The notes below the pieces were generated by a model. It ran no database searches, was not told the DNA's origin, and saw only the letters and a list, made by a program, of their open reading frames with translations. Below are positions 8,992 to 11,501 of a stretch of DNA of 64,000 nucleotides, one piece after another. A program made the translations under genes and the position numbers. The stretch is from Betaproteobacteria bacterium (GTDB lineage Bacteria > Acidobacteriota > Terriglobia > Acidiferrales > UBA7541): contig CAJCHZ010000047.1 of assembly GCA_903970165.1 (NCBI GenBank), positions 1 to 64,000 on the forward strand, written 5' to 3'. Numbering within the stretch: the first letter of the stretch is position 1; the number at the start of each line of letters is the position of its first letter.

Positions 8992-9114
8992 TTGCCTCCC
9001 CTAATTGTTTTGCGCTATTGCCACTTTTTTCGCCTCTCGCTATAACATGGACAACCTGAATTGCTTCCCCATCCGACCGAGTTCATGGCGACGTGGAGGC
9101 ACCCCAAAGCACCC

Positions 9115-9151
9115 GCGGCCGACGCCCGCACAGCGTCGGCCGCCTTTATTT
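9115..9151 (+). terminator. Rho-independent terminator after the CRTAC1 gene
   Basis: An 11-base perfect inverted repeat, GCGGCCGACGC at 9115-9125 and GCGTCGGCCGC at 9133-9143, with a 7-base loop, is followed by CTTTATTT. It lies in the 262-base gap between the CRTAC1 stop and the selenoprotein start and would end rightward transcription of the kinase-regulator-CRTAC1 message. Confidence 0.7.
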
Positions 9152-9253
9152 GTGGCAGGCAGTTTGCGAGATTCGAATGGAACGCAGCGCGAACAAGTTC
9201 GTTTCTCAATCATTATATAATTTCTAGAAGAAAGTCCTTTGGAGCGACATGCG

Positions 9254-9838
9254 ATGACCTGGATCAAAACGGTTCGAATGGAAGAGGATGAGGATCTAAA
9301 GACAGCAATTGAAGAAGAGCGCAAGTTCTATCCTGCCGAATACGCCACGCCGGTTGCCTCTGTTTTCGCGGGAGTGGACCAGAGCATTGTTGGTTCGCAC
9401 TCGCTCTTCCCCGATGTGCTTTTTCACGCGTTCAGCACCTTCGGTTCGCTGATGTCTCCTGATTTACCCCTGAAGCGCCACCAGCACGAAATGATCGCTA
9501 CGATGGTTTCGGTCACGAACCGGTGTCACTATTGAATCGAATCTCACGCAGAGTTTCTGCGTCGCGTGACTTTGAATGAGGAAATGGTGGAAGCGCTCAA
9601 GAAAGATTATCGCACCGCGCCAATCACGGAACAGGACCGCACGATGGTGGAGTATGTTGTGAAATTGACGAAAGACGCGACGAAAGTCTCGCCTGAGGAC
9701 CACGTAAAATTGCGTGCAGCCGGTTTCGATGACCGCGGAATTTTGCAGATCACATTGATTGCGTCATGGTTCAACTACATCAATCGCGTGGCAGATGCAC
9801 TTGGGGTTGGGCGTGAGCCAAGCGTGGTCGCGAAATAG
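9254..9838 (+). CDS. Predicted selenoprotein: AhpD/peroxidase-related enzyme with a Cys-x-x-Sec active site
   Basis: Two consecutive open stretches in one frame are separated by a single TGA at 9533-9535. Before it the protein reads [14 protein letters not shown]; after it, [11 protein letters not shown] and about 90 more residues of the same family. In AhpD-like peroxidase-related proteins (carboxymuconolactone decarboxylase superfamily) this is the CxxCxxxH redox motif, normally NRCxYCxxSH, so the TGA replaces the second catalytic cysteine. Read through with selenocysteine the product is 194 residues, the usual length for the family. A hairpin directly downstream fits a bacterial SECIS element. 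The start is ATG 9254, with GGAG nine bases upstream. The role would be thiol-dependent peroxide reduction. The alternative is a nonsense mutation, but the position and hairpin argue against chance. Confidence 0.85.
9546..9562 (+). promoter_or_regulatory. Candidate bacterial SECIS element inside the selenoprotein gene
   Basis: ACGCAG at 9546-9551 pairs perfectly with CTGCGT at 9557-9562 around the loop AGTTT. There are 16 bases between the UGA (9533-9535) and the loop, and a G is the second loop base. Bacterial SECIS elements as generally described have an apical loop 16-37 bases after the UGA with a G among its first two bases, so this fits. The A and T at the ends of the loop could add a seventh pair, leaving loop GTT. 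It would recruit SelB carrying selenocysteyl-tRNA. Confidence 0.7.
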
Positions 9839-9859: not shown

Positions 9860-10552
9860 CTAGACTCCTGCATCCGCTCTGCTTGCGCCGATTCCAAGCT
9901 CCCCGAAACGAGCAACGACGCCACTTTTCTCCAGCCACTTTCCGGTCGCGGTATGACTCAAATCATGCTGAGACAGTGCGCGCAGGTCGGATTCGTCGTC
10001 CACATCCATTTCCAGGCGTACGTTTCGCCTCACGATGATTCGTGCATCGGTTTGTTCCGCTTCCCGCCGATGTTTGGCAAAGCTATGGGGTCCGAAGTGG
10101 GAAGGAAAGAGAGCCGGAGGCGTGCGTAGAATGGCATTGGTGCCTGTGCCGTCGCGCGAAGGTACCATAACCACTGCCGGCGCGGCACATTCCGTTGCCA
10201 AGAGTTCATCGATGTCGCCCGATTGGACGAGCGGAAGATCAAGCGGCAATCGCAGCAGGCCAGTGACGCCGCGCTCCGCGCAAAGGCGCGACGCAAAATC
10301 GACCGAAGCGCTTTCCGAGATTTGTTGTTCCTCTTGCAAGACCTCCCAGCCATTTTTCTCCGCGGTCGCAATGGCAGGCGGGTAGTTTGTGACCACAAAT
10401 ATTTTCTGAGCGAGCGTCACGCCGCATATCGCTCTGACGGTGTCCGCCAACATGGCGCTCGCTAGATCAAAACGTTCCTCGGGCGTCAGCACGGATGCGA
10501 GGCGCTGCTTCGCATTCCGCAAATCCTTGATAGGTAGGACCAGCGCACGCAT
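9860..10552 (-). CDS. cofC: 2-phospho-L-lactate (or phosphoenolpyruvate) guanylyltransferase, F420 biosynthesis
   Basis: A nucleotidyltransferase of 230 residues with the CofC/FbiD pattern: ALVLPIKDLRNAKQRLASVLTPEER at the N-terminus (residues about 3-27, the GTP-binding start), LRLPLDLPLVQSGDID with the metal-binding aspartates, and MVPSRDGTGTNAIL followed by GPHSFAKH. It activates a phospho-organic acid with GTP to make the side-chain precursor of coenzyme F420. ATG 10552 is chosen, with GGGAG about ten bases upstream; GTG 10570 is an alternative. It diverges from an F420:NADPH oxidoreductase gene, which supports the F420 assignment. The other F420 genes (cofD, cofE, cofG/H) are not in the window. 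Confidence 0.85.
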   Translation of the reverse strand: MRALVLPIKDLRNAKQRLASVLTPEERFDLASAMLADTVRAICGVTLAQKIFVVTNYPPAIATAEKNGWEVLQEEQQISESASVDFASRLCAERGVTGLLRLPLDLPLVQSGDIDELLATECAAPAVVMVPSRDGTGTNAILRTPPALFPSHFGPHSFAKHRREAEQTDARIIVRRNVRLEMDVDDESDLRALSQHDLSHTATGKWLEKSGVVARFGELGIGASRADAGV

Positions 10553-10820
10553 CGAACTATGCTCCCTCACCTATTGCAGGCGCAAACGCGAACTTTTTGC
10601 ATGGTTCGGAGTTTTCAAGTGGGCCCGATGCTTTGGCATGGTATCTTTTTGCTCGCATGCTTCCGCTCCATGCACATCTCGAGTGAGCACTGCTTTGTTC
10701 GCCAAGCGGGGCTGAGGCCATCGTACCAGAGCTTGTGCGAGGTCAGGGAGCGGCCAGTTCAGCGGACGGGGCGCTTGCAGGATGGGCGCAGGTAAATCGG
10801 CAAGACGGAGCGCATTTGGA

Positions 10821-11501
10821 ATGACACGAAAAATCGGGATTCTGGGCGGAACGGGGCCGGAAGGCTCGGGCCTGGCGTATCGCTGGGCGCGCGCCGGCGA
10901 AGAAATTGTAATTGGCTCGCGTGATCCGGCTCGTGCGGCGGAGACAGCCGCGCAAGTGCGCGCTCGTATTGGCGGCTCCGCGAAAATGGAAGGCGCGGAT
11001 AACGTAACAACAGCTTCGCAATGCGATGTCGTGGTCCTCACGGTTCCTTTCTCCGGCTGCGCAGCACTCTTGAAACAGTTGAAGAGCGTGTGGAAGCCGG
11101 GAACTGTGGTTATTGACACAACGGTTCCGCTCGCTGCGTCCGTTGGGGGATCGCCCACACGCATGCTCGGCGTTTGGCAAGGCTCCGCCGCCGAACAAAC
11201 CAGGGAGCTACTTCCCGCGGGAGTGAGCGTCGCGGCCGCGCTTCAGAATCTTGGCGCAGAACTGCTTGCCAAAGACGAACCCGTCGACTGCGACATCCTG
11301 GTCTGCAGCGATGATGAAAAAGCCACGCAGATCGCCTCTGAGCTTGCGGAGAAAATTCCCGGCGCCCGGGCCATTAACGGAGGCAAGCTGGAAAACGCGC
11401 GCATCGTCGAGTCGCTCACCGCGCTGCTCATCGGAATCAACATGCGCCACAAAGTTCACAGCGCCGGTATTCGCTTCACGGGCTTGCCCGCAAGAAAATA
11501 G
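10821..11501 (+). CDS. npdG: NADPH-dependent F420 reductase (F420:NADPH oxidoreductase)
   Basis: A 226-residue Rossmann protein beginning KIGILGGTGPEGSGLAYRWARAGEEIVIGSRD; the GGTGPEG loop and IGSRDP are typical of Fno/NpdG enzymes, which transfer hydride between NADPH and coenzyme F420. Further family text is VVLTVPFSG, VVIDTTVPL, and the C-terminal INGGKLENARIVESLTALLIGIN. The start at ATG 10821 places the protein at the first Rossmann strand; an in-frame ATG at 10782 would add 13 unlikely residues. It faces cofC across 268 bases that show no other gene. Together they suggest the organism makes and uses F420. Confidence 0.88.
   Translation: MTRKIGILGGTGPEGSGLAYRWARAGEEIVIGSRDPARAAETAAQVRARIGGSAKMEGADNVTTASQCDVVVLTVPFSGCAALLKQLKSVWKPGTVVIDTTVPLAASVGGSPTRMLGVWQGSAAEQTRELLPAGVSVAAALQNLGAELLAKDEPVDCDILVCSDDEKATQIASELAEKIPGARAINGGKLENARIVESLTALLIGINMRHKVHSAGIRFTGLPARK

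Follow-up and report, generated by a model that had tools for sequence, protein, structure and literature searches.

The locus studied here, from a soil acidobacterium, raises the question of whether a TGA in the middle of an otherwise open reading frame ends one protein or encodes selenocysteine (Sec) within a longer one. In the window, by which we mean the whole analysed stretch of 64,000 nucleotides, a single frame on the forward strand (9221-9838) is open save for one TGA at 9533-9535, as the first-pass annotation had already seen when it described two adjacent ORFs sharing one frame. We conclude from the sequence evidence that 9254-9838 is, with a probability of about 96%, a Sec-encoding gene of the TIGR01926 AhpD-like family in which the UGA is read as Sec (Table 1). 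Sec coding, the SECIS hairpin, the Sec machinery, the family and the fold are supported by the sequence, while for the relay, for the reductant and for any chemistry as a peroxidase or disulfide reductase we draw on AhpD.

Table 1 Features of the AhpD-like selenoprotein locus, with residue roles given as predicted.
Feature	Position	Strand	Evidence
GGAG, resembling a ribosome-binding site	9241..9244	+	9 nt before the ATG; aligns with GGAG/GGGG in L017 and L018
AhpD-like (TIGR01926) selenoprotein gene, 194 aa, Sec at residue 94	9254..9838	+	read-through translation; TIGR01926 and CMD Pfam scores
Glu79, putative proton-relay glutamate	9488..9490	+	invariant; E-C-Y-C-H spacing 0/12/14/15/19 as in PA0269 (PMC3141380)
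Cys91, first residue of CxxU, putative resolving Cys	9524..9526	+	invariant in 25 aligned proteins; counterpart of Cys48 in PA0269 and of Cys130 in M. tuberculosis AhpD (PMC3141380)
In-frame UGA, predicted Sec codon (U94), second Cys of CxxC	9533..9535	+	TGA in 81/81 sequences; Cys in PDB homologues and L135
His98, putative relay histidine	9545..9547	+	invariant; corresponds to His55 of PA0269 and His137 of MtAhpD (PMC3141380)
Predicted bSECIS hairpin, stem ACGCAG/CUGCGU, loop AGUUU	9546..9562	+	six frozen codons; consensus fold; compensatory changes in distant paralogues
Stop codon TAG	9836-9838	+	end of the AhpD-like gene

Family assignment of the read-through product

The reading frame starts with an ATG at 9254, and the resulting M-x-W start is kept in relatives in the protein alignment. 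Read through the UGA, the product carries the motif C91-H92-Y93-U94-I-E-S-H98 and matches NCBIfam TIGR01926 with 107 bits (curated cut-off 81.8), residues 53-188 aligning to profile positions 40-176, as well as Pfam CMD with 32 bits (curated cut-off 23). The proposal that family sequence flanks the UGA on either side thus holds for a product of 194 aa, with a TIGR01926 match that crosses the UGA itself. All 25 aligned members match TIGR01926, and E79, C91, U94 and H98 are invariant among them, so that the CxxC(U)xxxH motif and the relay Glu of this family are both present. Furthermore, the UGA had been placed at the second Cys of the motif, and comparison with homologues bears this out, as Cys occupies this position in 3c1l, 2pfx, 2oyo and in the orthologue L135.

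A conserved hairpin downstream of the UGA

Scanning GTDB species genomes, we collected the best 80 relatives, with about 68-90% amino-acid identity, most of them from Acidobacteriota MAGs and a few from assemblies labelled Planctomycetota, which together with the window give 81 sequences. The Sec codon is TGA in 80/80 of these best relatives (81/81 including the window). It is followed by a stem of 6 bp (9546-9551/9557-9562) closed by a 5-nt loop (9552-9556) with G in second place, starting 16 nt past the UGA, exactly as the first-pass annotation had described it. In the 81 sequences, the synonymous codon entropy of codons 98-103, relative to expectation, is reduced to a ratio of 0.00-0.16 (about 0.07) vs 0.88 (SD 0.15) elsewhere, and 0 of 200,000 random six-codon draws were as low; the frozen codons are exactly these six, covering 9546-9562. 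Because the TGA is kept in 81/81 sequences and the codons behind it are synonymously frozen, the conserved hairpin at 9546-9562 is, on comparative grounds, not a product of chance.

The rare stem variants mostly still pair (A-U to G-U, C-G to U-G, G-C to G-U), and the sole break in pairing among the variants of the close set affects the outermost pair. Since the stem scarcely varies, covariation is uninformative within the close set, and compensatory changes are known from distant paralogues only: in TGA-bearing paralogues of the phylum the hairpin keeps its place, and its stem pairs are preserved by compensatory replacement of C-G with G-C, e.g., ACGGAG-AGUUU-CUCCGU (L142) and ACGGAG-CGGGA-CUCCGU (L136). 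Folded in isolation, the elements form the hairpin with energies between -6.2 and -10 kcal/mol, that of the window giving -8.8. Both the isolated element and the alignment consensus add a seventh A-U pair, resulting in 7 bp with a 3-nt loop (GUU) at 17 nt from the UGA, and when 45 nt from the window only are folded, the minimum free energy belongs to a competing structure and not to the 6-bp hairpin. Published limits for bSECIS elements are a loop of 3-9 nt, a stem of 4-16 bp, a G among the first two loop nucleotides, a distance of 16-37 nt to the UGA and an MFE of <= -7.5 kcal/mol (PMC13188914). The suggested agreement with SECIS rules is confirmed in either form, that is 6 bp/AGUUU/16 nt or 7 bp/GUU/17 nt, at -8.8 kcal/mol. 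Rfam matched nothing between 9400 and 9700 with E up to 1 and nothing across the window at the gathering threshold, and the SECIS call is therefore based on the comparative evidence.

Selenocysteine machinery and distribution across the phylum

The first-pass annotation had proposed looking for selA, selB, selC and selD in the rest of the genome, holding that absence of the first three would speak against a selenoprotein; all four were found, selB being split by a contig break. The window's genome contains a tRNA-Sec (63.7 bits) with anticodon UCA according to ARAGORN, selA (547.9 bits) and selD (349.7 bits). The selB gene lies in two contig-end pieces, one on C71 (profile positions 1-79) and the other on C55 (73-578), and as their ends share an exact 24-base overlap, they are most simply read as one gene cut by the assembly. 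Besides the AhpD-like gene, the genome has a second selenoprotein gene, L172 (G000:C56:117859-118626), which encodes FdhA, the alpha subunit of formate dehydrogenase, with an in-frame TGA (RV-UGA-HGP). The FdhA hairpin GGUCUC-AAGUUU-GGGACC is SECIS-like, and its AAGUUU loop is similar to that of the AhpD-like gene.

Among 247 genomes of the phylum, a TGA-type relative (E <= 1e-30) is present in 43 and a stop-free orthologue in one (G014). A tRNA-Sec was detected in 39 of the 43 TGA genomes vs 111 of the 204 others (Fisher p 4e-6, kinship ignored), the counts over the 247 genomes being tallied by hand from the match list. The call was made at E < 1e-10, a threshold set after ARAGORN had typed matches of ~50 bits in G014, G026 and G242 as tRNA-Ser. 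Weak matches of 44-52 bits in G014, G026, G208, G234 and G242 were left out of the count, since those checked with ARAGORN turned out to be tRNA-Ser or another tRNA. In the four of the 43 TGA-bearing genomes with no recognisable tRNA-Sec, all four assemblies are fragmented (270-950 contigs). The only non-TGA orthologue found, L135 (G014:C125), reads NRTRYCSLSH, with Cys at the Sec position and Thr at the place of the first Cys, and no recognisable tRNA-Sec was found in G014, where the best match is a tRNA-Ser. Roughly 1 kb upstream of L135, G014 carries a second AhpD-like gene with a CHFC motif.

Decoding of the UGA as Cys or Trp, or a non-specific read-through of the stop, in either case without selenium, would agree with the Cys that non-Sec homologues have at this position. 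We consider such decoding very improbable, given that the UGA is the sole affected codon of the gene and has a frozen hairpin with G in the loop behind it, that the genome has a tRNA-Sec (UCA) and the other Sec genes, that the UGA of FdhA stands at its classical Sec site, and that no tRNA-Sec is recognisable in the genome of the one TGA-free orthologue.

Conservation of the frame and selection downstream of the UGA

In a sample of the window's family, 20 of 61 genomes gave a match, each with exactly one TGA. Besides the window, the sample holds 15 close orthologues of full length, ten of them belonging to the window's genus; all have the TGA, and these 15 keep the CxxU and the hairpin sequence with single changes at most. 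An intact frame with the same TGA in sister genomes shows that this is no decaying frame, and breaks at other positions in sister strains, which had been named as a reason to abandon the Sec reading, were looked for and did not appear. Moreover, dN/dS downstream of the UGA is 0.027-0.073 in the five computable pairs with the window (sampled median 0.11), which points to purifying selection on this part of the gene. A dead gene with the UGA as nonsense mutation, or a sequencing error, could be suspected because a fresh pseudogene would show a single in-frame stop and because the locus comes from a 131-contig draft genome, and is of negligible probability with the same TGA in the assemblies of 80/80 best relatives and in each of the 15 close orthologues from the family sample, and with purifying selection persisting beyond it. 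Pseudogene, frameshift and recoding readings were thus ruled out by the conservation of the TGA codon and the downstream selection.

Relation to known AhpD-like families

AhpD-like proteins with CxxU were first listed as a new family, with 27 sequences, in the Sargasso Sea survey of 2005 (PMC1088965), were also reported in the GOS survey (PMC2398784) and appear in a 2026 review under the entry 'AhpD-like protein, TIGR01926, CxxU' (PMC13188914). As this family has been catalogued since 2005 (PMC1088965, PMC13188914), the kind is already known and no new class is described here, in line with the first-pass annotation, which had called the class not new. The gene of the window shares with the Sargasso Sea and review family (TIGR01926/COG2128) the NCBIfam family, the CxxU and a stem-loop SECIS after the UGA. 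Whereas marine metagenomes are the main source of the examples in the Sargasso Sea and GOS surveys, the clade of the window belongs to Acidobacteriota, is found largely in assemblies from soil and peat, and has a SECIS that hardly varies, the comparison being by description. A partial literature search found no publication on this Acidobacteriota clade, and the acidobacterial member is new and possibly unannotated. The enzyme is widespread among acidobacteria and probably annotated as two fragments.

NF041238 (AhpD_rel_CFYUT) and NF053654 (GroundWater_YciW) are related families of AhpD-like (seleno)proteins. Membership of the window protein was rejected for both, with 57.3 bits (cut-off 175) and 37.2 bits (cut-off 310), far under the respective cut-offs. 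Acidobacteriota also harbour a second, distant TIGR01926-like CxxU group (L136-L144) with a scattered occurrence and motifs such as NECHYU and NDCYYU; in several of its members the SECIS loop is G-rich.

Fold and putative function

The best matches in fold and sequence are the AhpD-like structures 3c1l, 2pfx, 2oyo, 6k40 and 2prr. The AF2 model is of moderate quality, with a mean pLDDT of 72 and values below 50 for residues 102-106 right after the motif. PA0269 (2O4D), 3c1l, 2pfx, 2oyo and 6k40 share the helical AhpD-like fold, and the E-x11-C-x-Y-C-x3-H spacing is that of PA0269; these five have Cys at the second motif position, whereas the protein of the window has Sec. The spacing of E79/C91/Y93/U94/H98 equals that of E36/C48/Y50/C51/H55 in PA0269 and of E118/C130/H132/C133/H137 in M. 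tuberculosis AhpD (PMC3141380). In comparison with the latter the relay spacing matches, with Tyr in place of His132 and Sec in place of Cys133, while the two folds as a whole match weakly (E about 0.05).

By analogy to AhpD, the protein is most likely a selenol-based thiol peroxidase or disulfide reductase of the AhpD type with an E79/C91/Y93/U94/H98 relay, and for peroxidase chemistry alone we see slightly better than even odds. In the mechanism we propose, the ribosome would insert Sec at the UGA (9533-9535) with the help of tRNA-Sec and of SelB bound to the hairpin at 9546-9562, and the product would fold into an all-helical AhpD-like protomer. The E79/Y93/H98 relay would activate the selenolate of U94, which as the nucleophile would attack a hydroperoxide or an equivalent oxidised substrate. 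The selenenylsulfide then formed between U94 and C91 would be re-reduced by a cellular thiol or disulfide reductase.

The most serious competitor, which we hold to be somewhat less than an even bet, is that the selenoprotein acts as a disulfide reductase or as an AhpD-to-AhpC adaptor and not as a direct peroxidase. M. tuberculosis AhpD is an adaptor for AhpC, and PA0269 itself shows weak reduction of H2O2 as its direct peroxidase activity (PMC3141380). Against an adaptor stands that the gene has no constant neighbour such as AhpC; in addition, L135 retains Cys at the Sec position and has Thr at the first, which suggests that a single nucleophile is indispensable and misfits a pure CxxC dithiol carrier. 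Improbable in our view is another reaction of the selenol nucleophile, e.g., a reductive dehalogenation like the one suggested for Bmp8, a debrominase with the AhpD fold whose structures 6ohi and 6ohj are among the fold matches. As deiodinases illustrate, Sec is capable of this chemistry; yet the match to Bmp8 (E 5e-3 or worse, 14% identity) is weaker than those to the peroxidase-related structures, and no constant neighbour hints at such a pathway.

Returning to the selenol-based peroxidase or reductase, there is a more speculative reading, which we regard as unlikely: the AhpD-like clade centred on Acidobacteriota may be locked to Sec, with no Cys form in a Sec-decoding genome, a near-fixed SECIS and a rare Cys form lacking the first Cys. 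If this were true, Sec would act by itself, making the protein a one-selenol peroxidase that depends on an external reductant. Whatever the chemistry, the frozen SECIS and the matched Cys form make a clean comparative case for bacterial Sec decoding.

Genomic context

No constant partner gene was found among the 81 loci, the commonest neighbour clusters occurring in 24, 20 and 17 of them, and as the flanking genes vary among relatives, they give no clue to a partner. A search for plasmid homologues found none. Just downstream (9860-11501) lie a CofC-like gene (- strand) and a gene resembling the F420-NADP oxidoreductase NpdG (+ strand), both named by eye from their translations; a CofC-like neighbour is present in only 3/81 loci, hence nothing suggests that they form an operon with the selenoprotein gene.

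The region 9048-9160, situated between an FG-GAP-like gene upstream and the selenoprotein gene, contains a strong hairpin resembling a terminator (GCGGCCGACGC..GCGTCGGCCGC), with TTTATTT behind it and GACGTGGAGGCACCCCAAAGCACC and a TATAAC box ahead of it. A 24-base motif of this region is single-copy in the genome and absent, allowing up to 2 mismatches, from 14 sampled members of the genus. The sequence and its hairpin recur upstream of the L017 gene with changed stem letters, and the element is possibly a small RNA or a leader.
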